Source: an uncultured cyanobacterium
GTDB lineage: Bacteria > Cyanobacteriota > Cyanobacteriia > PCC-6307 > Cyanobiaceae
NCBI GenBank assembly: GCA_903917565.1
Contig: CAIXBB010000007.1
Coordinates: 1 to 64,000 of the forward strand
Length of the DNA: 64,000 nt
Direction: 5' to 3'
A program made the translations under genes and the position numbers. This document shows, in pieces, positions 2,375-48,072 of the stretch (positions within the stretch are counted from its first letter, which is position 1; each line of letters opens with the position of its first letter). A model generated the notes under the pieces. That model was not told the DNA's origin, searched no databases, and was given only the letters and a program-made list of their open reading frames with translations.

Positions 2375-2656
2375 ATGATCGAGCCTCTGCCGGAGCTGAG
2401 CACCGCCGAACTGGAGACCCTGCTGGCCGCCCTCGATCCGCTGCTGGATGGCTTCGGCGAGGGGGGCTCCTGCCTCGACGATGCCAGCGCCTTCCTGGAA
2501 CGACTGGGCCTGGGCCAGCCCAGCGACGACGGGGGGACGACCTCGCCCCTGCTGCAGTGGCTGGAAAGCTGGCGGGCCGCCGGCGGCAACCGGGCGACCC
2601 TGCGGCTGATGGTGCAGACCCTCCTGACGGGACGTCAGGAGGGTCTGCCGGACTGA
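2375..2656 (+). CDS. Conserved hypothetical acidic protein
   Basis: The 93-residue, acidic and largely helical protein (LSTAELETLLAAL, then LLQWLESWRAAGG) has no signal peptide, membrane segment or recognised motif. Codon use is typical of the surrounding genes, with GC-rich third positions. Its last dozen codons are embedded in a perfect inverted repeat (2614-2648), so the RNA encoding the C-terminus (TLLTGRQEGL) also folds as a hairpin. The gene converges with folP. Function unknown; being a real gene is the best reading of this interval. Confidence 0.6.
   Translation: MIEPLPELSTAELETLLAALDPLLDGFGEGGSCLDDASAFLERLGLGQPSDDGGTTSPLLQWLESWRAAGGNRATLRLMVQTLLTGRQEGLPD
2614..2648. terminator. Perfect 16-bp inverted repeat, likely bidirectional terminator
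   Basis: Bases 2614-2629 and 2633-2648 are exact reverse complements, separated by the three-base loop GGA. The hairpin covers the 3' codons of the 2375-2656 gene and lies 36 bases past the folP stop on the other strand. There is no T-tract, so it may act as a transcription barrier or RNA 3'-end stabiliser rather than a classical intrinsic terminator. Confidence 0.6.
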
Positions 2657-2682
2657 TCTGCAGGACTGATCTGCAGGACTGA
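2651..2682. repeat. 13-bp tandem repeat, about 2.5 copies
   Basis: The unit GACTGATCTGCAG occurs twice in full (2651-2663 and 2664-2676) and is followed by the first six bases of a third copy. Each unit holds a TGA; the first is the stop codon of the upstream gene. It fills the space between two convergent genes and looks like replication slippage. Confidence 0.8.
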
Positions 2683-2683
2683 A

Positions 2684-3547
2684 TCAGTGGCGGCTGAGGG
2701 CTTCGGCCATGCGGGCCGTCTGCACGATCGGCCCGACATCGTGCACCCGCAGCACATCGGCACCGGCGGCGATGGCCTGGACGCAGACCGCCGCGGTGCC
2801 CCAGAGGCGGGCCCGGGGGCGGGGCTCGGCCAGGACCTCGCCGATGAAACGCTTGCGGGACGGCCCCACCAGCAGGGGGAAACCCTCTGCCCGCAGCTGG
2901 GCCAGTCCCCGCAGCAGGGTGAGGTTGTGGGCGGCGGTCTTGGCGAAACCCAGCCCCGGATCCCAGACGATCCGCTCCGGGCGCACCCCCGCGGCCAGGG
3001 CCCGGTCGGTGGCGCGCAGCAGCTCCTGGCGCACCTCCGCGACCACATCGCCGTAGTGGGCCAGGGCGTCCATCGTGCGGCTGTCGCCACGGCTGTGCAT
3101 CAGCACGCAGGGGCAGTCGGCGGCCGCCACCACCGTCAGCAGGGCGGGATCACGGCGGCCGGCGCTGACATCGTTGATCCAGTGCGCCCCGGCCGCCAGG
3201 GCCGCCTCGGCCACCGGGGCGAGGAAGGTGTCGATCGAGAGCAGGGGGCCTCCGGCCTCCGGGGGCGGCAGCGTCGCCAGGATTCGCCGCAGGCCGGGCA
3301 GCACCCGGGCGATCTCGACCTCGGCACCGACCTCGGGCGCCCCGGGCCTGGTGCTCTGGCCCCCCAGGTCGAGCAGGTCGGCACCTTGACGGTGCAGCAG
3401 ACGGGCCCGCCGCAGGGCCGCGTCGGGGGCCTCGAAACGGCCGCCGTCACTGAAGGAATCGGGGGTGAGGTTGAGGACCCCCATCACGAGGGTGCGATCC
3501 CCCCAGCGGAAACCGGGTGGTGCGGCGAGAGGTGCGGCATCGCTCAC
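2684..3547 (-). CDS. folP: Dihydropteroate synthase
   Basis: DHPS condenses p-aminobenzoate with dihydropterin pyrophosphate in folate synthesis and is the sulfonamide target. The 287-residue product shows the family motifs in order: MGVLNLTPDSFSDGG near the N-terminus, DLGGQSTRPGA (Gln where most have Glu), SIDT, INDVSA, DPGLGFAKTAAHN, and GPSRKRFIG near the C-terminus. A GTG at 3547 is chosen as start because it gives the normal N-terminus. The frame is open to 3655, but that extension lies inside tpiA. It is 25 bases downstream of tpiA on the same strand and is probably co-transcribed with it. Confidence 0.93.
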   Translation of the reverse strand: MSDAAPLAAPPGFRWGDRTLVMGVLNLTPDSFSDGGRFEAPDAALRRARLLHRQGADLLDLGGQSTRPGAPEVGAEVEIARVLPGLRRILATLPPPEAGGPLLSIDTFLAPVAEAALAAGAHWINDVSAGRRDPALLTVVAAADCPCVLMHSRGDSRTMDALAHYGDVVAEVRQELLRATDRALAAGVRPERIVWDPGLGFAKTAAHNLTLLRGLAQLRAEGFPLLVGPSRKRFIGEVLAEPRPRARLWGTAAVCVQAIAAGADVLRVHDVGPIVQTARMAEALSRH

Positions 3548-4344: not shown

Positions 4345-4563
4345 TTAAGGCGTGATGCTGCCATCCCCCCCACCGCCCAGCCGCCTGGAGAGCATCAGCA
4401 CCTCGTGGCCGTCGATGACCACCGCATCGCCAGGAGCCAGCTGGCGACCGCGCCGGGTCTCGATCGTGCCGTTCACGGTCACATCCCCCCGCTGGATGCG
4501 CTGCTTGGCCTCGCCGCCGGTGCCGACGAGGCCCTGCCATTTGAGGAACTGATCCAGCTTCAA
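4345..4563 (-). CDS. S4-domain RNA-binding protein (YbcJ/RqcP-like)
   Basis: The S4 fold is clear: [30 protein letters not shown], then the RGRQLAPGD and VVIDGHEV strands (shown here in pieces of one contiguous domain). Single-domain S4 proteins of about 70 residues bind structured RNA, often on the ribosome. A TTG at 4563 gives the usual compact 72-residue product. No ATG or GTG lies nearby, and the frame stays open to 4659 across the start of the divergent ABC gene. The start is therefore uncertain while the domain is not. It precedes tpiA by about 30 bases on the same strand. Confidence 0.75.
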
Positions 4564-4602
4564 CGTCAGGGGACGCCCGGAGAGCGCTGATAGGGTTCGT
4601 CG

Positions 4603-6342
4603 ATGCTTGCACCCTCGCCGGCCGGCTTCCGCAGGCTCTGGCCGCTGCTGAAGCCCCACCGGCGACCCCTGCTGTTCGGGGGGTTGTGCATGCTGGTGTT
4701 TGTGGCCTGCTGGCCCCTGCTGGCCTGGCTGGCGGGCCAGCTAATCCCGGCCATCGGCGCCGGCGATTTCTCCACGGTGCTGCGCAGCGTGGCCGCGGCC
4801 CTGGCGGTGTTCCTGGTGCAGAAGATCGCCCAGTTCGGGCAGGACACCCTGCTGGCGGGTCCGGCCCTGCAGGTGAGCCAGGAGCTGCGGCGCCAGCTGT
4901 TCGCCCGGCTGCAGCGGCTCGACTTCGGGGCCCTCGAGAAGCTGTCCGCCGGCGATCTCACCTACCGGCTCACCGAAGATGCCGACCGGGTGGGGGAGGT
5001 GATCTACAAGACGATCCAGGACACCACCCCCAGCGCCCTGCAGCTGGTCGTGGTGCTGGGGTACATGGTCTGGCTGGACTGGCCCCTGGCCCTGGCCACG
5101 CTGCTGCTGGCCCCGCTGGTGGCGCTGATGGTGAGCGCCTTCGGGGCCCGGGTGATGAACTCCGCCGAGCGCAGCCAGAAGCAGGTCAGCGATCTGGCGG
5201 CCCTTCTGGCTGAGGCGATCGGCGGACTGCCCCTCGTGCGGGCCTTCGCCGCGGAGCCCTGGCTGCAGGAGCGCTTCGACACCGAGATCGACCTGCACCG
5301 TCGCGCCCGCTACCGCACCCTGGAACTCCTGGCCCTGCAGCACCCGGTGGTGGGTTTCATCGAAGCGGCGGGCATCCTCTCGGTGCTGCTGATCGGGGCG
5401 GCGCGGATCAAGGCCGGCGGCCTCGACAGCCAGGGATTCAGCAGCTATGTGGCCGCGTTGCTCATGCTGATCGATCCGATCTCCCACCTCACCACCAACT
5501 TCAACGAGTTCCAGCAGGGCCAGGCCTCGCTCAATCGCCTGCGGGCGATCGAGAACGAGCCGGTGGAACCGCCCGACCACCCCGATGCCAGGCCCCTGGG
5601 AGCCGTGTCCGGGGAACTGGTGCTGGAAGGGGTGAGCTTCGGCTACCAGAGCGGCAGCCCGGTGCTGCGCCAGCTTGATCTTCAGATCCGGCCCGGCCAG
5701 GTGGTGGCCCTGGTGGGACCCTCCGGAGCCGGCAAGAGCACCCTGTTCTCGCTGCTGCTGCGCTTCAACACAGCCCAGAGCGGCCGGGTGCTGCTCGATG
5801 GCCAGAACCTGGCCGACCTGCGCGCCCGGGACCTGCGCCGGGCCGTGGCCCTGGTGCCCCAGCAGAGCAGCGTGTTTTCAGGCACGGTGGCCGAGGCGAT
5901 CGCCTTCGGTCGCCCCGCCAGCGGTGAACAGATTCGCCAGGCCGCACGGCTGGCCAATGCGGCGGACTTCATCGAGACCCTCCCCGGCGGCTATGACAGC
6001 CGCCTCGAGGAACGGGGCAGCAACTTTTCCGGCGGCCAGCTGCAGCGGCTGGCGATCGCCCGGGCCGTGCTGGGCAACCCGGCGGTGATGCTCCTCGACG
6101 AGGCCACCAGCGCCCTGGATGCGGAGGCCGAAGAGGCGGTGCAGCAGGGCCTGCAGCAGGCCATGGCCGGTCGCACCGTGCTGGTCATCGCCCACCGGCT
6201 CGCCACCGTGCAGGAGGCCGATCTGATCGTCGTGCTCGACGGCGGTCGCATCGTCCAGCAGGGCAGCCACGATCAACTCATGGCCAGCGGCGGCCGCTAC
6301 CGGGAGCTGTGCGAGCGCCAGTTCATCCGTCTGGAGGCCTGA
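4603..6342 (+). CDS. ABC exporter, fused permease and ATPase (MsbA/multidrug type)
   Basis: The 579-residue protein is a type I exporter half-transporter. Residues about 20-310 form six membrane segments, and 340-579 the nucleotide-binding domain. The motifs are Walker A GPSGAGKST (near 372), Q-loop LVPQQSS, signature NFSGGQLQRLAIARA (near 473), Walker B MLLDEATSALD (near 495) and switch His in VIAHRLATV. Such proteins dimerise and export lipids or amphipathic compounds; the substrate cannot be read from sequence. It is divergent from the S4-tpiA-folP set, with overlapping 5' regions. Two HIP1 palindromes (near 5894 and 6051) lie inside. Confidence 0.9.
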   Translation: MLAPSPAGFRRLWPLLKPHRRPLLFGGLCMLVFVACWPLLAWLAGQLIPAIGAGDFSTVLRSVAAALAVFLVQKIAQFGQDTLLAGPALQVSQELRRQLFARLQRLDFGALEKLSAGDLTYRLTEDADRVGEVIYKTIQDTTPSALQLVVVLGYMVWLDWPLALATLLLAPLVALMVSAFGARVMNSAERSQKQVSDLAALLAEAIGGLPLVRAFAAEPWLQERFDTEIDLHRRARYRTLELLALQHPVVGFIEAAGILSVLLIGAARIKAGGLDSQGFSSYVAALLMLIDPISHLTTNFNEFQQGQASLNRLRAIENEPVEPPDHPDARPLGAVSGELVLEGVSFGYQSGSPVLRQLDLQIRPGQVVALVGPSGAGKSTLFSLLLRFNTAQSGRVLLDGQNLADLRARDLRRAVALVPQQSSVFSGTVAEAIAFGRPASGEQIRQAARLANAADFIETLPGGYDSRLEERGSNFSGGQLQRLAIARAVLGNPAVMLLDEATSALDAEAEEAVQQGLQQAMAGRTVLVIAHRLATVQEADLIVVLDGGRIVQQGSHDQLMASGGRYRELCERQFIRLEA

Positions 6343-31973: not shown

Positions 31974-33653
31974 GTGGGTCACTCCGAGCCATGGGGGCTT
32001 CGCCCACGCCCCCGATGGGCGCGCGTCATCCTGCCCCTGCTGGCCGCTCTGCTGGCGGCCCAACTGCTGGTGGCGACCCCCCTTGTCCGGGCGGGTGAAT
32101 CTCCACCACCGGCCTTCATCGAACTGGATGGCCGCCAGGTGCTGGAGATCCGCGCCGGCGTCGGTGCCCAGACCCCGGCACAGATGGCGCGGCGGGGCAG
32201 CCAACGGCTGGCCGAACTGGCCGGGAACTACTCGATCGAGCCGGGGCAGATCGTCGTGCAGGAGGACCCCCCCTACACCACCATCGGCCGGATGCAGGAC
32301 GGCGTGTTCGAGCCCAGGATCTCGGTTGACGACCGCAACGCGGCCCGCTTTCAGCTCAACCGCCAGCAGCTGGCCCAGCGCTACCTGGAGCAGATCCGCG
32401 CGGCGATCGTGCGCTACCGCCAGACCCACCGGCGCTCCGACTGGCTGCGGGGCACCGCCCTGGCCCTGCTGGCTCTGGGCTTCTACATCCTCTGGCTGCG
32501 GGGCCAGATGGCCCTCAACCAGCGCCTGGAGCGCTGGATCAACGACCCCGCCAACCGCCGGATCCGAGGACTGCAGGTGGGGGGCAACCAGTGGCTCACC
32601 GCGGATCAGGAGCGCAGCCTCCTCGATCCCCTGCGCCGGATCGTGCATGGGTCCGTGCTGCTGCTGGTCAGTTATCTCTCCATCCCCCTGTTCCTGGGGC
32701 TGTTCCCCCCCACCCAGGGCCTCTCCGAAACCCTGCGGGGCCAGATCACCGGCCTTGTGGTGGGCGGCGCCCAGGCCTTTTCGAGGGCCATCCCCGACCT
32801 GATCTCGGTGGCGGTGATCCTGGGCCTCAGCGTGCTGCTGATGCGGGCCAGCAACGCCTGGTTCCGGGCGGTGGAACTGGGCAACCTCCGCCTGCGCTGG
32901 TTCTATCCCGAATGGGCCCGGCCCACCGCCCGGCTGGTGGGGATCGGCATCCTGCTGCTCGGCGTCGTGCTGGCCTACCCCTACATCCCAGGGGCCAACA
33001 GCAAGGCCTTCCAGGGGGCCGGGCTGTTCGTGGGGGTGCTGGCGGCCCTGGGCTCGAGTGCCGTGGCCGCCAACCTGATCGGCGGGCTGATGCTCACCTA
33101 CACCCGGGCCTACCAGGAAGGCGACCGGGTCAGCATCAACGGCACCGTCGGCATCGTTCACGACTGCGCCCTGCTGGTGACCCGCCTGCGCACCCCCCGC
33201 AATGAGGTGGTGAGCATCCCCAACGCCACCGTGCTGGGGGCCTCGATCGTCAATTACAGCCTGGCCCGCCGCGAGATCGCCCAGCCCGTGGTGATCGCCA
33301 CCACCGTCACCATCGGCTACGACGTGCCCTGGCGCCAGGTTCACCGGCTGATGCTGGACGCGGCCGGCGCCACCGCAGGCATCAGCCGGGAGATGCCCCC
33401 GTTCGTGCTCCAGACCTCCCTGAACGACTTCCATATCAGCTACGAGCTCAGCGCCTACGTGGAGGATGTGGACACCTACCGCAGCACCCTCTCCGACCTG
33501 CTGGGGGCCATCCAGGATCAGTTCGCTGGCGCCGGCGTCGAGATCCTCTCCCCCGTGTACCACGCCATGCGCAACGGGAACGGCAGCACGGTGCCCCCCT
33601 GGCCTTCCGAGTCCTTCGGCACCCCGACCCCCACTCCACCCGCCGCCGGTTGA
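31974..33653 (+). CDS. Mechanosensitive ion channel, MscS family
   Basis: The 559-residue protein starts at a GTG with a signal sequence (WARVILPLLAALLAAQLLVATP), followed by a roughly 110-residue periplasmic domain. Membrane segments then come at about 163-182, 225-245, 272-290 and 320-340. The MscS pore and beta domain reads GLFVGVLAALGSSAVAANLIGGLMLTYTRAYQEGDRVSING, VVSIPNATVLGASIVNYS, with a C-terminal cytoplasmic domain. MscS channels open at high membrane tension to release solutes in osmotic downshock. The periplasmic extension marks a larger MscS subtype. It begins 18 bases after the AraC gene. Confidence 0.88.
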   Translation: MGHSEPWGLRPRPRWARVILPLLAALLAAQLLVATPLVRAGESPPPAFIELDGRQVLEIRAGVGAQTPAQMARRGSQRLAELAGNYSIEPGQIVVQEDPPYTTIGRMQDGVFEPRISVDDRNAARFQLNRQQLAQRYLEQIRAAIVRYRQTHRRSDWLRGTALALLALGFYILWLRGQMALNQRLERWINDPANRRIRGLQVGGNQWLTADQERSLLDPLRRIVHGSVLLLVSYLSIPLFLGLFPPTQGLSETLRGQITGLVVGGAQAFSRAIPDLISVAVILGLSVLLMRASNAWFRAVELGNLRLRWFYPEWARPTARLVGIGILLLGVVLAYPYIPGANSKAFQGAGLFVGVLAALGSSAVAANLIGGLMLTYTRAYQEGDRVSINGTVGIVHDCALLVTRLRTPRNEVVSIPNATVLGASIVNYSLARREIAQPVVIATTVTIGYDVPWRQVHRLMLDAAGATAGISREMPPFVLQTSLNDFHISYELSAYVEDVDTYRSTLSDLLGAIQDQFAGAGVEILSPVYHAMRNGNGSTVPPWPSESFGTPTPTPPAAG

Positions 33654-33657
33654 GGGC

Positions 33658-33723
33658 TCAAGCCGCCTCCAGCTGGGCGAGGGCCTCGATCTGCAGACCC
33701 AGCCCGAGGGCGAACAGGATCAT
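33658..33723 (-). pseudogene. Possible remnant of a BASS-type transporter N-terminus
   Basis: A 21-codon minus-strand frame, MILFALGLGLQIEALAQLEAA, resembles the first helix of SBF transporters (compare TIMFALGVGLKG in the 25976-26842 gene). The frame is open upstream into the DUF202 gene but out of phase with it. It fills the gap between the convergent MscS and DUF202 genes. Fragment or chance; the support is weak. Confidence 0.2.
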
Positions 33724-33752
33724 GAACAGGCTGAGGACGGGTGGAGCGGGAG

Positions 33753-34142
33753 TCAGAGCGACAGCCCCCCGTAGGCCAGCATCGCCAGGGCGACGGCGCC
33801 GATCAGGGTGAGGCTCAAGGCCGTGGCCGTGGCGATCGAGCGTTGCTCGCGATAGACGAACACATCACTGTTGAGGCGGCGCAGATCACGCCGGTGCTGG
33901 ACGGTGGCCGCCGCCATCGCCACCATGCCGGTGAGCACGAAGGCCATCGACACCAGCCTCACCCCCAGGCCTGCGTGGCCGACGACACCGTCGCCCTGGC
34001 TCCTGATCGCGGCGACGATCTTGTCGAGACCGAAGCCGAAGCTGATCAGGGAGAGACAGGTGCGGATCCAGGCCATCAGGGTGCGCTCGGCGGCGTCACG
34101 GTTGCGCTGCTTGGCCAGTTCGTTGGTGAGATTGACGGTCAT
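33753..34142 (-). CDS. DUF202 (YidH-like) membrane protein
   Basis: The 129-residue protein matches DUF202: NELAKQRNRDAAERTLMAWIRTCLSLISFGFGLDKIV, with the conserved ERTLMAWIRT. A second helix (VRLVSMAFVLTGMVAMAAAT), a basic loop and a third helix (ATALSLTLIGAVALAMLAY) complete the three-helix topology. Members are inner-membrane proteins of unknown function. It converges with MscS and is divergent from the 34264 gene. Confidence 0.9.
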   Translation of the reverse strand: MTVNLTNELAKQRNRDAAERTLMAWIRTCLSLISFGFGLDKIVAAIRSQGDGVVGHAGLGVRLVSMAFVLTGMVAMAAATVQHRRDLRRLNSDVFVYREQRSIATATALSLTLIGAVALAMLAYGGLSL

Positions 34143-34263
34143 GGCAGGTGTGGGGAGGCCTCCTGAGGAGGGCGGCGGCGCCGCAGGCTCAGATCCATGG
34201 TTTCACCCATGCCCCCTCTTCCCTGCCTCGCTAGCGTTCCATCACCCCCCTGGCATACCGAGG

Positions 34264-34638
34264 ATGGCCGTTCTCAACCGCTGTGGGATCGCAGTGGCGC
34301 CGCGGCAGCCCATGGTCGACTGGACGCGACCCTTCTGGACCCGCGAGGACATGGAAGGGCTGGGGGAGGACCACAGCCTCTACCTGATTCCCACCTACGA
34401 CACCGAAGCGGAAGCCCAGGACCGGCTCCTGGACAGCTACGGACAGATCTTCGCCGCTGAACTCGACCTCTGGTGCCGCGACCGCAGCCGCTGGCCCCAG
34501 CCCCGCAGCCTTGAACTCTTCGAGGCCTGGTTCTCTGTTCGCTTCTTCCCCCTCGTCGAGGACCTGGACACCGATCCGTTGCACACCTACGTCATCGATG
34601 ACCACTTCCAGGACGCCCTGCGTGAGGCCATGGGCTGA
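34264..34638 (+). CDS. Conserved hypothetical protein beside transglutaminase
   Basis: The 124-residue acidic protein has no membrane segment or known motif. It is rich in aromatic residues and acidic pairs (WTRPFWTREDMEGLGEDH, LYLIPTYDTEAEAQ, LDLWCRDRSRWPQP). It ends three bases before the transglutaminase start, so the two are almost certainly co-transcribed and probably act together. I recall similar small proteins in other picocyanobacteria but no assigned function. Confidence 0.7.
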   Translation: MAVLNRCGIAVAPRQPMVDWTRPFWTREDMEGLGEDHSLYLIPTYDTEAEAQDRLLDSYGQIFAAELDLWCRDRSRWPQPRSLELFEAWFSVRFFPLVEDLDTDPLHTYVIDDHFQDALREAMG

Positions 34639-34641
34639 GCG

Positions 34642-35535
34642 ATGTTCTTCCGAATCCACCATCGGCTCAGTTACACCTACGACCGGCCCGTCTTCCTGGA
34701 GCCCATGACCCTGCGGCTGACCCCCCGCCAGGACGGCAGCCAGAGAATCCTCGAGCATCATCAGAAGCTGGTGGATCCGCCGGCGGGCCTGACCCGGGTG
34801 CTCGAGCCCGATGGCACCGACGCCATGGTGGCCTGGTTCCAGCAGGAGCGGGACCACCTCACGATCGAAGTGGACATGCTGGTGGAAACCCTGCGCAGCA
34901 ACCCCTTCGACTGGATCGTGACCCACAGGGAGGCGCAGCATCTGCCGGTGACCTACCCGGAGGCGGAGGCCAGCTCCCTGGCGGGATGTCTGCAGGATCA
35001 GACCGATCCCGCCGTGCGTGCCTGGGCCCAGGCCATCGCTGAACGGGTCGACGGATCGGCCACCGCCTTCCTCAGCGCCCTGGCCGATGACATCCACCAT
35101 GGCTTCCACCATGTCGGTCGGCTGGAAGGGGAGCCGACCTCAGCGGCGGAGACACTTGCGACGCTCACCGGGGCCTGCCGGGACACCGCCATGCTCTTCA
35201 TCGCGGCCTGCCGCAGCCAGGGCCTGGCGGCACGGTTCGTGAGCGGCTACTCGATGCACCATCCCCCCGAGGTGAGCGAACACGAGCTGCATGCCTGGGC
35301 TGAGGTGTACCTCCCGGGAGGGGGATGGAGGGGGTTCGATCCCAGTCTGGGCCTGGCGGTGGCCGATGGCCATGTGGTGCTCGCCGCCGCACCGGATCAC
35401 CATCTGGCGGCGCCGGTCAGCGGCCGCTACCGGGGAACCGGCGTGGGCTCCAACCTCACCTATCTGATCCAGCTGAAGGCCGCCTCCAGGCGCGAGGAGC
35501 TGGAGGAAAACGCTCAGCCGATGGTCCCGAGCTGA
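34642..35535 (+). CDS. Transglutaminase-like protein (bacterial N-terminal domain type)
   Basis: The 297-residue protein starts MFFRIHHRLSYTYDRPVFLEPMTLRLTPR, the bacterial transglutaminase-like N-terminal domain. It then has the papain-like catalytic core with TGACRDTAMLFIAACRSQGLAARFVSGYS (Cys) and HELHAWAEVYLPGGGWRGFDPS (His and Asp). The triad is intact, so a protease, amidase or cross-linking activity is possible. It closely resembles the protein at 60050-60928. No signal peptide. Linked to the 34264 gene; the 3' end overlaps a small convergent gene. Confidence 0.87.
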   Translation: MFFRIHHRLSYTYDRPVFLEPMTLRLTPRQDGSQRILEHHQKLVDPPAGLTRVLEPDGTDAMVAWFQQERDHLTIEVDMLVETLRSNPFDWIVTHREAQHLPVTYPEAEASSLAGCLQDQTDPAVRAWAQAIAERVDGSATAFLSALADDIHHGFHHVGRLEGEPTSAAETLATLTGACRDTAMLFIAACRSQGLAARFVSGYSMHHPPEVSEHELHAWAEVYLPGGGWRGFDPSLGLAVADGHVVLAAAPDHHLAAPVSGRYRGTGVGSNLTYLIQLKAASRREELEENAQPMVPS

Positions 35536-35726
35536 AGCCAGCAGCCCGCAGGGGCCAGCTTTTCGACGATCACCGGTGCCTGGTGGCTCAGGACCAACGT
35601 TCTGGCATAGCGTTCGGCCTCGTCGCGATGGTCGAAGAGGGGGCCGAGCACCTCGTTGGGAACGGTGGTCTCGTTCTGGTCGGCGGGTCGGACCCGGTAG
35701 CGGCCACGAGGGCTGGGTTCACTCAT
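35514..35726 (-). CDS. Small hypothetical protein
   Basis: From ATG 35726 this is 70 residues: MSEPSPRGRYRVRPADQNETTVPNEV, then HRDEAERYARTLVLSHQAPVIVEKLAPAGCWLQLG. The C-terminal half has a beta-alpha-beta look, with EAERYARTL as a helix and PVIVEKL as a strand. It overlaps the end of the transglutaminase gene by 22 bases. No family recognised. The frame is open to 35834, but the extension looks non-coding. Confidence 0.5.
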   Translation of the reverse strand: MSEPSPRGRYRVRPADQNETTVPNEVLGPLFDHRDEAERYARTLVLSHQAPVIVEKLAPAGCWLQLGTIG

Positions 35727-35835
35727 GCCACCAATCTGCTCCCCACCCCCCGCAAGTCGCCCCAGCAGCAGAGTGTCTTCCAATCCTGCGCGGACTCCCC
35801 ACCGGCGCGGACCACCCCGGCAGGGACCGACCATG

Positions 35836-35864
35836 AAAAAACCGCCCCGGAAGAACCGGGGCGG
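35836..35864 (-). terminator. Rho-independent terminator of the RNA-binding protein gene
   Basis: On the minus strand, CCGCCCCGG and CCGGGGCGG (35864-35856 and 35850-35842) form a nine-pair stem with a five-base loop. Six T residues follow (35841-35836). It lies about 40 bases after the stop of the RRM gene. Confidence 0.9.
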
Positions 35865-35902
35865 CCAGAGATGAAACAGGGACCTGGGGAGGACCCGGAG
35901 AC

Positions 35903-36253
35903 TCAGTAACGGCTGCGGCCGCCGCCACCGCCGCCATAGCCGCCGCCGCCACCACCGCCGTAGCCACCGCCACCGCCGCCGGAGCGACCGCCGCCACCGC
36001 CGCCGCCACCGGTGCGGGGCTCAGCCTTGTTGACGCGGATACTGCGACCCATCCACTCCACATCCTGGAGATCGTCGATGGCCTTGGTCTCGTCGGCGTC
36101 GTTCGTCATCTCAACGAAGGCGAAGCCCCTCTTGCGGCCGGTGTCGCGATCAAGAGGGAGGGTGCATTGGCGAAGCTCGCCGTACTGGGCAAACAGATTT
36201 TTGACGTCTTCCACTTCGGCGTCGAAGGAAAGATTTCCGATGTAAATGGTCAT
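35903..36253 (-). CDS. RRM-type glycine-rich RNA-binding protein (Rbp)
   Basis: The 116-residue protein has one RRM. RNP2 is IYIGNL at residues 3-8, RNP1 is RGFAFVEM near 42-49, and the fold ends SIRVNKAEPR. A C-terminal tail of about 35 residues is nearly all glycine with Tyr and Arg (GGGGGYGGGGG). Cyanobacterial Rbp proteins of this type respond to cold and light, bind mRNA, and some localise thylakoid-protein transcripts. The T-run just upstream of the start (TTTTTTTCTGG) lies in the 5' leader. A strong terminator follows. Confidence 0.93.
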   Translation of the reverse strand: MTIYIGNLSFDAEVEDVKNLFAQYGELRQCTLPLDRDTGRKRGFAFVEMTNDADETKAIDDLQDVEWMGRSIRVNKAEPRTGGGGGGGGRSGGGGGGYGGGGGGGYGGGGGGRSRY

Positions 36254-36414
36254 GAACCAGAAAAAAAACTATGAACCGATCCTTCGACAGCCCTTTTAGA
36301 AAGTGATGAGCTCGCTGGAGAGAAATCTTGGAATCTTCCCTACCCTACAGCCCCCATGGGCCCGGGAGGTCCCATGGCCAGGGGTCGGGATGACCGTCCC
36401 TGACGGCCGCCGCC

Positions 36415-36573
36415 TCAGTGCTGCACATGTGCAGCCTCCATGCCCACAGCAGCCCCACCGGCTGCGCCCCTGCCACGGGGACAGGCGGAGCGATCCGGGA
36501 TGGGGCTGCCTTTGCCCTGGCCCATGAGCAGCTCGGACCCAAGGCCGATCACGAAGCCAGCCACCAGCTCCAT
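36415..36573 (-). pseudogene. Truncated high-light-inducible protein remnant next to frp
   Basis: The frp stop is followed at once by an ATG (TGAATG) opening a 52-codon frame: MELVAGFVIGLGSELLMGQG, then an unrelated basic tail. GFVIGLGSELLMGQG matches the second half of an HLIP helix (GFVIGLGTEILTGQG in the intact gene at 47917-48072). The chlorophyll-binding part ExxNGRLAM is absent because frp coding sequence sits where it should be. A decayed hli gene is the simplest reading; a functional micro-membrane-protein co-translated with frp is the alternative. Confidence 0.5.
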
Positions 36574-36900
36574 TCACATGCGGGACATGGCCACAATCTT
36601 TGTGAGCTTGTCCTTGTCCAGTCCTTCCAGTTCTTCCACCTGGAGCAATCCGTCCTTCATAAGGCTGGCGAACACGAACAGGAGCCCTGGCAGGCGGAAG
36701 TCAAAGCGGCCCTCGATTTCGTGGCGTTGAATGCTGAGGAAATCATGGAGTTTCCAGCACTCCTCCACAGAGTCCATGCGGCTGGCGTGGGCCTGGGCAG
36801 CACGGATGATTCCCAAGGCGGCTCGGGAATGGGCCTTGTCGAAGGCACGACGTGCCACATCCTGCTCCTGGTCCGTCCACCCCAAAACCGCAGTCACCAT
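36574..36900 (-). CDS. frp: Fluorescence recovery protein
   Basis: FRP binds photoactivated OCP, releases it from the phycobilisome and speeds its return to the orange state. From ATG 36900 this is 108 residues, matching the active 109-residue Synechocystis form. The key segment is CWKLHDFLSIQRHEIEGRFD: Trp49, His52, Asp53 and Arg59 align with functional Synechocystis residues Trp50, His53, Asp54 and Arg60. LLFVFASLMKDGLLQVEEL and DKLTKIVAMSRM complete the family pattern. Starts at 36912 and 36948 are also in frame. It follows crtW on the same strand with a 26-base gap. Confidence 0.92.
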   Translation of the reverse strand: MVTAVLGWTDQEQDVARRAFDKAHSRAALGIIRAAQAHASRMDSVEECWKLHDFLSIQRHEIEGRFDFRLPGLLFVFASLMKDGLLQVEELEGLDKDKLTKIVAMSRM

Positions 36901-36926
36901 GGGTCTCAACATCTGATTTTTTGACC

Positions 36927-37661
36927 TTAACGCGCGACCCTCAGCCACCGCGAGCCATCCCCCTGTCCGTGATCAAGAGAAACGCGCCGCCTCAACTCCG
37001 GCAGCCGAAACCAGGGCACCGCCGGGTAGGCATGGTGCTCCCAGTGGTAGCCGAAGTGATAACAAGCCAGCAGGGAGAGAAGGTGGGAGTACTCCAGACT
37101 CCGGACGGCATGGCTGCCGGCAGCGGTAGAGGCTTCGCTGCGATGGGGGAGGTAGGTGCCGAAGAGGAACAGCTGAAACGAGCTCAGCACCAGCGGCAGA
37201 ACCCAGAAAGCGATCACATTCATCGCCCGCTGGGGCTCCAGCCCCATCAGCAGTCCCGCCGCAGCGATCCAGGTGATCAGCAACAGGCCCAGCTGGTTCA
37301 AGGAGAGATAGTTCCCCATGAAACGCACATACCAATGCAGGGCACCATCGCCGCTGGCCAAACGGAAATCGGGATCCCGGAGGCTGCCGGGGGAATGGTG
37401 ATGACGCAGATGCTGCCGGCGGCAGCGACCAAAGGGCAGGCCGGCGTAGAGCATCAAGGCCAGACGACCCAGGCCGTCGTTGAGGCCTGGATGCCCGGGC
37501 ACCAGGGTGCGATGCATGGCGTCGTGACCCAGGATGAACAGGCCCGTCTGGAGGAAGGTGCGTCCAGCGACGGCCAGTACCACGGCCAGCGGGGACCAGT
37601 GGTCCGGAGGGGCGAGAAGCAGGCCGATGAGGGTGGCGAACCACCCCCAGAAGATCATCAT
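36927..37661 (-). CDS. crtW: Beta-carotene ketolase, CrtW type
   Basis: CrtW adds 4-keto groups to beta-carotene, giving echinenone and canthaxanthin, the OCP pigments. The 244-residue membrane enzyme has the three histidine clusters that bind the di-iron centre: LGHDAMHRTL, RRQHLRHHHSPG and HWEHHAYPAVPW, with about four membrane helices. The ATG at 37661 falls just at the first helix. The open frame continues upstream through GRGFWLGMM, so a non-ATG start slightly upstream is possible. Its position between ocp and frp matches its role in supplying the OCP carotenoid. Confidence 0.92.
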   Translation of the reverse strand: MMIFWGWFATLIGLLLAPPDHWSPLAVVLAVAGRTFLQTGLFILGHDAMHRTLVPGHPGLNDGLGRLALMLYAGLPFGRCRRQHLRHHHSPGSLRDPDFRLASGDGALHWYVRFMGNYLSLNQLGLLLITWIAAAGLLMGLEPQRAMNVIAFWVLPLVLSSFQLFLFGTYLPHRSEASTAAGSHAVRSLEYSHLLSLLACYHFGYHWEHHAYPAVPWFRLPELRRRVSLDHGQGDGSRWLRVAR

Positions 37662-37711
37662 TCCAAGCCAAAACCCCCTGCCCAGAGGGGCAGGCTGAAT
37701 GGGAGATCTCT

Positions 37712-38668
37712 TCAGCGTGCGAATTTGAGCAGCTCGGCCGGGGAGGCCAGCAGATCGATCGCCACGAAATAGATCTTGCCTTCGGGATCGAGCAGGAAGC
37801 GCCAGGCCACGTTCATGCCGACACCAGCGCCGAACCAGGGGGTCTGGACCTTTCCGGTGACCTTGATCTGGGTGAAGCCACCATCGGAGGGCTCGCTGGC
37901 GCCACTCTCGGGGAGGAGTTTGAGGTTCTGGCAGTCCTCGCGGAAAAAGCGCAGCACGGCATCGGTGCCGACGATGGGGCGCTGGAAGGGGGGCTGCAGG
38001 GCGCCGTCGGGAAGGAACAGCTTGATCAGCTGGTCGAAATCGTTGGCATTCAGCAGATCCATGTAGGACAGGATCGTGGGGTTGTCGATTCCCGCGATCG
38101 CCACCTTGGTGCGCTGCTCAGGAGCCGTGGGCAGCACGATCGGCTCAACGATGCGCTCGGCCCCATCCACTTTGCTGGGATCGAAGCCCATGTCGACGAC
38201 GAAGTTGCGCAGAACGGTGATCTGTTGACCCGCATCGATACCCTTGAGCGAGGACAACACCGAGGCCGCATTGGCCGAGAGCTGATAGCCCTCGGGGATG
38301 GGGGCGACGAGGCCTTCCTCCATCCACTCGCCGAGGCGATACCAGAACCCCAGCTTGATGTTGACCGACCAGATGGCGTAGGTACGGCAGATGTCGGTGT
38401 CGGCCCTGTTGGCCAGATCCACCATCACCTGGCTCTGCTCGGCGAAGGTCATGGCCTTGATCCGATTGAGCACCGGCTCGGCGAACTGCATGCGGGCCGC
38501 GCCGGGGGCGGCGATGGTGATGGTCTTGCCCATCTCGAGGTAGGCGAACCAGATCAGCGCCAGCTGATCCTCCGCGTTCAGCAGGGCGAATCGAGCGGTG
38601 AGCGCGGGCACCACATCGGCCGAAAGGGTGTCCGGAAAGATCTGGGACGCTTTGTCGAGCGTGAACAT
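37712..38668 (-). CDS. ocp: Orange carotenoid protein (OCP1-like)
   Basis: OCP is a blue-light-sensing keto-carotenoid protein that quenches phycobilisome excitation. The 318 residues match the family length. The all-helical N-terminal domain contains LIWFAYLEMGKTITIAAPGAA and KLGFWYRLGEWM. The linker is followed by an NTF2-like C-terminal domain with LSYMDLLNANDFDQLI and GMNVAWRFLL. The Tyr and Trp that hydrogen-bond the keto group (201 and 288 in Synechocystis) and the interdomain Arg in VLRNFVVDMG are conserved. FRP in the same operon points to the OCP1 group. GGAG lies upstream of the ATG. Confidence 0.97.
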   Translation of the reverse strand: MFTLDKASQIFPDTLSADVVPALTARFALLNAEDQLALIWFAYLEMGKTITIAAPGAARMQFAEPVLNRIKAMTFAEQSQVMVDLANRADTDICRTYAIWSVNIKLGFWYRLGEWMEEGLVAPIPEGYQLSANAASVLSSLKGIDAGQQITVLRNFVVDMGFDPSKVDGAERIVEPIVLPTAPEQRTKVAIAGIDNPTILSYMDLLNANDFDQLIKLFLPDGALQPPFQRPIVGTDAVLRFFREDCQNLKLLPESGASEPSDGGFTQIKVTGKVQTPWFGAGVGMNVAWRFLLDPEGKIYFVAIDLLASPAELLKFAR

Positions 38669-38853
38669 GACAGGAAAACTCCGGAGGTCAAGTAATCTTT
38701 ACAAATCCTAATCCATGACGGCACTGGCTCTGGGGCCGCCTTCTACCTAGGGAAGCACGATTCCGTGTCCGTCAGCACAGCGGGCAGTAAGCGGATAACC
38801 CTCGCAAGGATTTGGATGGGTCCCTGGAGGCGATCGCCCCCAGGGACCCTCGA

Positions 38854-39621
38854 TCAAGGCGCGGCGGTGCTCAGCATGGCCGCCGCTGTCCAGAGCACCA
38901 GGCCCGTGATCGCGAAGCCTCCGGCGGTGACCAACCCCTGCCAGATCTGGCGCGCCAGGGGCGAGGGCTGCTCCCCGAGCCAGGCGGGGCGAGGGGTGCC
39001 AGGCGACCAGGGGCTGGTGCCGCGGGGCGCCCTGCTCGCGATCACGTCGCGCCAGCGGCCGTCATAGCGGGGAGCCTGCTGGTTGAAGGGGCGTTCACCC
39101 TGGGCCCGGCCCGGCAGCACCCGGGAGCGCTGATAGGGCACCGTGTCATAACCGAAGGCGTCGAGATACTCGGCCGAGTCAAGCAGGGAGTCCACCAACG
39201 TCATAAGCCCATGCTGGGCGATCAGGATCGAATAGCTGATGCGTTCCTGTTCGCCATAGACAGGCCGGCCCAGAAGTCGGCCAACCAGCTGCTCAACCAG
39301 GCGATAGTTGCTGTTGCAGTCATAGAAACCCTCACGGAATCGCCTGGAAAGCAGAAGCCCGCGGATGAAATCCCTCATGGTGATCTGTCCGCTGCGAAGC
39401 TGGGATTCCAGCACCACTTCACGATCCACCTTGAAGGCATGGAAGAAGATCTGGCGGTAGGCCTGCTCGATCTGAACATCAAGAGCGAGGCGATCTCCAG
39501 CGGCCTGGCGCGTCTCCAGGCTGGCGACGGCCTGGCGGGGAGATTCCTCATTGGCGATCGCAAAACTCGGCACCCTGGCGTTGAGGCTCGAGGGTCGGGC
39601 GGCGAGCAGGGGAAGGGCCAT
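38854..39621 (-). CDS. cpcL: Phycobilisome rod linker with C-terminal membrane anchor (CpcL/CpcG2)
   Basis: The 255-residue protein starts [20 protein letters not shown], the CpcG N-terminus, and has the Pfam00427 linker domain: [54 protein letters not shown] and [19 protein letters not shown]. Near 228-250 a hydrophobic helix ([21 protein letters not shown]) replaces the soluble tail of CpcG1. CpcL-type linkers anchor small rod phycobilisomes to the thylakoid next to PSI (and NDH-1). It lies 185 bases upstream of ocp on the same strand, an interval that holds the ocp promoter. Confidence 0.93.
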
Positions 39622-47916: not shown

Positions 47917-48072
47917 TCAGCCGAGGCCGATCTGGGCAAGGATTCCCTGGCCGGTGAGGATCTCAGTGCCGAGGCCGATCACGAAACCGAGCATGGCCAG
48001 GCGGCCGTTCCAGGTTTCAGCGAAGGCGACGAAGCCGAAGCGGGAGGTGGAAGCGGAGGTGGAGTTCGTCAT
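47917..48072 (-). CDS. High-light-inducible protein (HLIP)
   Basis: The 51-residue protein has a short Ser/Thr-rich N-terminus and one membrane helix, with ETWNGRLAMLGFVIGLGTEILTGQG carrying the chlorophyll-binding motif ExxNGR (Glu19, Asn22, Arg24). HLIPs bind chlorophyll and carotenoid and protect photosystem assembly in high light. The upstream region has TTTACACT, an HLR1-type half-site, in line with RpaB control. The short open frame falls below usual prediction cut-offs. Confidence 0.92.
   Translation of the reverse strand: MTNSTSASTSRFGFVAFAETWNGRLAMLGFVIGLGTEILTGQGILAQIGLG

Follow-up and report, generated by a model that had tools for sequence, protein, structure and literature searches.

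Gene order at the frp locus

The window, by which we mean the whole 64,000-nucleotide stretch of contig CAIXBB010000007.1 (assembly GCA_903917565.1) of an uncultured cyanobacterium of the Cyanobiaceae, carries on its minus strand the gene order ocp-crtW-frp-(hli relic)-RRM, whose features are collected in Table 1. The crtW-like gene reaches 210.8 bits against NF045690, below the model cut-off of 350.

Table 1. Features of the ocp-frp region and a comparison gene (positions of the window; G003 is the nearest relative in the tree described below).
Feature	Position	Strand	Remarks
ocp (orange carotenoid protein)	37712..38668	-	Pfam Carot_N and NTF2
crtW-like beta-carotene ketolase	36927..37661	-	NCBIfam NF045690, E 2e-62; FA_desaturase
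frp (fluorescence recovery protein, FRP)	36574..36948	-	FRP domain at 36574-36915, Pfam PF18032, E 1.2e-32
Open frame, 52 codons and stop	36415..36573	-	very probably a chance frame over an hli relic; stop at 36417-36415
DNA from the 3' half of an hli gene, 48 nt	36512..36559	-	nhmmer E 1.3e-8; profile positions 72-119 of 144
Putative deletion junction 1	36560..36562 (approximate)	.	about 115 nt missing with respect to G003; pairwise and multiple alignment
Putative deletion junction 2	36495..36496 (approximate)	.	64 nt missing with respect to G003; pairwise and multiple alignment
RNA-binding protein (RRM) gene	35903..36253	-	Pfam RRM_1; 3' border of the relic
Intact hli paralogue, comparison gene	47917..48072	-	

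An RRM gene is found downstream of frp in 17 of 199 frp loci (L009-L025). It is preceded in the window by a leader of about 85 nt (36254-36339, minus strand), near-identical in 16 congeneric loci and recognisable in the 17th, with 34 of 94 alignment columns invariant across the 17 loci and a T-run just 5' of the ATG. By eye the leader is far more alike between loci than the remaining frp-RRM spacer, and it could be a regulatory leader. The Rfam scan of window positions 35800-37000, leader included, gave nothing close to a gathering score. No promoter or terminator was found in a scan of window positions 36200-36700, a result that carries no information either way. The corresponding terminator scans gave one terminator-like site in G003, no excess over shuffles, and three sites in the congener G027 against a shuffle mean of 1.3, the best being a 10-pair hairpin with a T-run after its hli gene.

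The open frame behind frp

The frp stop TGA (36576-36574) directly abuts an ATG at 36573 in the same reading frame, and the frame opened there is translated as MELVAGFVIGLGSELLMGQGKGSPIPDRSACPRGRGAAGGAAVGMEAAHVQH. The TGAATG junction and the 52 open codons are thus as an earlier note on this DNA had described them; its word "fused" holds for the abutting position and the common frame, but not further, as the frp stop stands between the two. The frame overlaps a region rich in such openings, with 70 ORFs of at least 30 residues overlapping 33000-39500, and its openness therefore carries no weight as evidence.

At the protein level the 52-residue product shows no match in Pfam (E 1), PHROGs or NCBIfam, and it is absent from the eight own-genome matches to the chlorophyll a/b-binding model PF00504. 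The ExxNGR chlorophyll-binding motif, which belongs to the first half of the HLIP helix, is missing from the frame, as had been pointed out earlier, and the profile match described below accordingly begins only at position 72 of 144. With the protein-family libraries empty for this frame, DNA-level tests were used.

DNA-level likeness to hli

The residues GFVIGLGSELLMGQG (window 36514-36558) correspond to GFVIGLGTELLTGQG in the second helix half of the intact hli consensus, with agreement in 13 of 15 residues and 40 of 45 nt, which bears out the earlier reading of this piece as a C-terminal HLIP helix half. The surviving 45 nt are 89% like the consensus, three of the five changes falling at third positions; so small a number of differences does not suffice to test for selection and would be compatible with former or weak constraint, while nothing in the sequence speaks for selection on the 52-codon frame as such.

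A DNA search of 186 nt of the minus strand against the own genome (3,024,678 bases, or 3.02 Mb; 40 of 81 first-look candidates scored) placed two intact hli genes at ranks 2 and 3 among the 42 matches listed at E up to 10, rank 1 being the query itself. They match at 80% over 44 nt (E 4.8e-4) and 78% over 46 nt (E 8.9e-4), belong to the FAETWNGR subtype and are aligned at the expected segment.

A DNA profile was built from 32 hli sequences of the window's genus, the G027 gene included and one window gene represented twice (rows L003 and L134), and applied, in 77 frp loci, to the 703 nt that begin at the frp stop. The window piece is found with E 1.3e-8 among these 77 loci and 3.3e-8 among the 199. 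The ranking over the 77 is headed by G027 (2e-45, as a profile member), followed by G146 (1e-17), G040 (2.1e-14), G003 (1.5e-12), G025 (3.5e-11), the window and G041 (0.0024), all others standing at 0.09 and worse. Scanned from -1100 to -400 relative to the frp end, a mostly coding stretch and hence a weak control, the profile gave no match at E 1. Local alignment to the profile consensus scored 78 in the window, with none of 500 dinucleotide shuffles exceeding 44, and with gaps the match extends to 36482-36561.

Convergence or chance could also bring 15 residues to resemble an HLIP helix, and the protein-level match of the frame to hli, taken alone, is weak enough (E 0.049 and 0.12) to suit that explanation. 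The own-genome search, the DNA profile and the shuffle-tested alignment all argue against it, as do the intact or decayed hli genes at the same place in relatives, and we consider its probability negligible: the HLIP likeness is real at the DNA level.

As a side observation on other hli copies, five congeneric loci (L109, L110, L111, L113 and L123) show, a few bases behind an hli gene, a small gene whose product starts with M(G/A)TDYTPAI and which may be psbN-like.

Intact and decayed hli at the same place in relatives

FRP is present in 77 of the 149 genomes of the relatives set (own genome included) and in 40 of the 42 of the genus. The search of related genomes for an intact hli after frp that had been proposed earlier was successful in G027, a congener in which an intact hli of 47 residues starts about 155 nt past the frp stop, in the same orientation as frp and ahead of the RRM gene. 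Three further relatives carry decayed copies, none more than about 240 nt from frp and all on its strand. In G040 the 5' part survives, with a frameshift at the WNGR codons; G003 has a frameshift in the helix and no hli start; G025 keeps most of the length, matching profile positions 10-120 without indel, but its ExxNGR motif is degraded (WNGR to WKCR) and a stop follows GTE. A decayed hli behind frp, one of the two origins suggested earlier for the frame, is hence what relatives of the window display.

These assignments were examined with 500 dinucleotide shuffles per locus in the 17 loci having the RRM gene. The local alignment beats all 500 shuffles in the window, G003, G025, G040 and G027, while the score of G041 is reached by 2 of 500 and those of the other 11 loci by 34 to 473 of 500. 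As the G041 trace is placed at 25-110 by the DNA profile and at 213-318 by local alignment, we call this locus doubtful.

A degenerate HLR1-like pair was seen by eye before the G027 hli, and clearer TTTACA-N4-GTTACA pairs stand before many other hli genes; pairs of this type are what we take the name HLR1 to designate.

Phylogeny of the locus

In a tree of crtW-frp DNA with 24 rows, the window pairs with G003 (support 100/96), and both belong, with G025, G040 and G041, to a clade of 8 rows (100/100). G027 is not part of that clade but falls in a larger one of 16 rows (100/100), which comprises one intact, four clearly decayed and one doubtful hli, together with ten loci without clear trace. 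Between frp and RRM lie 321-722 nt where hli or a clear relic is present (five loci); in the ten traceless loci the distance already spans 221-515 nt, so that distance alone is no marker of a lost hli.

Under unordered parsimony four changes are needed, G041 being scored as carrying a trace, and a single ancestral copy is not obligatory. A single ancestral frp-linked hli followed by repeated loss would be the simplest account of the sequences if gain is rare. The patchy distribution and the four changes could also be read as separate insertions of hli behind frp in several lineages of the genus, and the G326 genome of another genus, g45, whose frp-linked hli is of another subtype, adds to that reading, since it means that the placement arose more than once between genera. 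Within the genus, however, the clear traces are of one subtype, on one strand and in one place, between frp and RRM, and both their spacer sequence and their membership of the 8-row clade unite the window, G003, G025 and G040. Repeated insertion is thus unlikely, though it keeps some weight, and a single ancestral gene is the account we follow below.

Origin of the 52-codon frame

Alignment of the window to G003 shows a gap of about 115 nt between the first 14 nt, which include the frp stop, and the helix segment and, past the TGQG codons, another of 64 nt. What follows GQG in the frame matches G003 DNA lying beyond the hli stop; this tail is therefore probably a chance reading of non-hli sequence, in line with the non-HLIP tail of the earlier note. 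In an alternative gapped alignment the tail begins with a frame-shifted hli end. Where the spacer of the window reads TGAATGGAGC, G025 and G040 have TGAGTGGAGC, which points to an ATG derived from the spacer by one G to A change; G003 shares the ATG.

We propose, with a probability of roughly 0.92, that the 52-codon frame is a chance frame over a decayed hli relic, the ancestral frp-linked hli having been lost by deletion. The ancestor of this Cyanobium/Synechococcus-like clade would have had the order ocp-crtW-frp-hli-RRM, its frp-linked hli being an intact gene of the FAETWNGRLAMLGFVIGLGTELLTGQG type. This hli would have lost its function in the lineage of the window; one deletion, of about 115 nt, may have taken its 5' half with the preceding spacer, and another, of 64 nt, its end, its stop and the DNA following. 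TGAATG would have arisen as G was replaced by A in the spacer codon next to the frp stop, and the outcome would be a chance frame that keeps 15 codons of the later HLIP helix. We infer this direction of change, and likewise the single ancestral copy and the absence of function. Neither the plasmid nor the phage collections gave a match at E 0.01, hence no sign of a mobile source in those collections.

The same features can be read in another way, also raised earlier: the relic might have been co-opted as a new micro-protein coupled to frp, made by termination-reinitiation at TGAATG as a small membrane or regulatory peptide. The junction at the frp stop, the 52 open codons and the 15 hli codons retained in frame at high DNA identity would suit such a product. 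Against it stand the lack of a family match, the frequency of ORFs of such length in the GC-rich DNA here and the tail aligned with G003 DNA downstream of hli; moreover, no Shine-Dalgarno-like stretch is evident by eye 5' of the ATG. Neither the frame nor its sequence is conserved among the relatives compared, the same ATG opening an unrelated 27-codon frame in G003, and G025 and G040 having GTG at its position and other frames. With a frame not kept in the nearest relative, a start lying in spacer and a tail that is probably non-hli, we read the piece as a relic and hold a new micro-protein to be very improbable. HLIP chlorophyll binding requires the ExxNGR half, and the relic, from which this half is missing, should not act as an HLIP and is most likely non-functional. 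If re-initiation after frp occurs at all, it would yield a short peptide with half a helix, presumably a by-product.

The relic itself is a case of ordinary gene decay. It serves as a warning that a frame linked through TGAATG to the gene before it can be what a deletion has left behind, and, as a fossil, it indicates that the OCP cluster of the window's lineage probably once contained an hli that was then lost.

Pairing of frp and hli across cyanobacteria

More interesting than the relic is the pairing of frp with hli in a few cyanobacterial groups. A six-frame scan covered 199 frp loci in 196 genomes (77 + 105 + 17 loci; five duplicates dropped), the added 105 and 17 being a subset of a wider FRP match set. 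Thirteen of the 199 loci, from three genera, have an intact hli no more than about 500 nt downstream of frp, and a fourth genus has an altered copy; the earlier idea would have fallen had intact HLIPs never stood next to frp, which is not the case. The 13 loci are that of G027 in the window's genus, that of G326 (window's family, genus g45), where a same-strand hli of another subtype starts 9 nt past the frp stop, and 11 of genus g125 (family f12), in which hli faces frp in 11 of the 14 loci read (15 genomes). The convergent g125 genes, of one or two subtypes, lie about 110-350 nt behind frp (L181, L213, L214, L216, L217, L234, L239, L252, L255, L267 and L268).

The fourth genus is represented by G146 (family f12, genus g61), with a same-strand hli-like stretch that is open over the core and has KTWNGH in place of ExWNGR. 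This replacement, together with the lack of ATG, GTG or TTG before the core, ruled it out as an intact frp-linked hli; it was counted as altered, and to judge from its sequence it may itself be decaying. Hli-like stretches flank ocp-frp on both sides in this genome.

In g45, hli is found behind frp in 1 of 16 genomes, and an intact hli lies 0.6-0.9 kb upstream of ocp in all six loci read widely, a set that includes G326 and G085, chosen for a prior family match there. This upstream gene is on the ocp strand in five loci and on the opposite strand in G326. The widely read loci of g45 and G146 are L291, L292, L294-L297 and L273.

A general rule that hli lies near OCP-FRP was rejected: 20 further genera, each sampled at one locus over 7.3 kb, yielded no hli at E 0.05, with ocp found in 18 of the loci. 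At L298 (G219), two successive ocp-like stretches were noticed upstream of frp (2474-3424 and 4354-5298).

For the background, 78 hli family matches in about 48.6 Mb (ten genomes, some picked for showing the pairing) correspond to about 0.16% of genes, one gene per kb being assumed. Over 212 loci (the 199 and 13 more of g45), treated as independent, about 0.34 hli neighbours are expected, and at a mean of 0.37 the Poisson tail amounts to 6e-3 when three lineages are counted and 6e-4 when four are. Given the few lineages, a pairing beyond chance is suggestive, though the test was named beforehand. The association of the two photoprotection systems put forward earlier therefore stands in part, with intact hli beside frp in three genera and its absence from most loci examined.

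Tentatively, OCP-FRP loci could have recruited hli repeatedly in separate cyanobacterial lineages. This reading, which we put forward as a possibility with the odds against it, is based on ocp-crtW-frp-hli in the window's genus (intact in G027, otherwise as relics), on the like order with an hli of another subtype in G326 of g45 together with the hli upstream of ocp in that genus, on the hli pair that frp faces in g125 and on the altered hli copies on either side of ocp-frp in G146. If true, it would speak for selection favouring a common regulation of phycobilisome quenching and chlorophyll protection. The relic and the other frp-hli pairings in any case lead to a testable question, namely whether the OCP and HLIP systems are ever co-expressed.

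Comparison with known systems

A placement of hli beside frp was not found in the titles and abstract openings of the literature searched, from which subscription journals are mostly absent. For Limnospira strain P2, PMC8400943 lists repression of both an FRP gene (30213) and an HLIP gene (40644) under irradiation. The window has the same gene order and strand as the ocp-crtW-frp operon of Synechococcus WH7803, as given in the accessible part of PMC7393227; that part names three genes for the operon, no hli or hli relic behind frp among them, and mentions nine hli genes in the strain without drawing a link.

Compared with the HLIP/small CAB-like proteins of the FAETWNGRLAMLGFVIGLGTELLTGQG subtype, the likeness lies in the 48 nt of the relic that fall on positions 72-119 of the 144-position genus profile, and the differences are the lacking hli start, ExxNGR half and hli stop. 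With bacterial pseudogenes formed by deletion and frameshift the locus has in common a partial copy where a relative has an intact gene; it differs from them in the chance frame left by the relic, which begins directly after the stop codon of the preceding gene.
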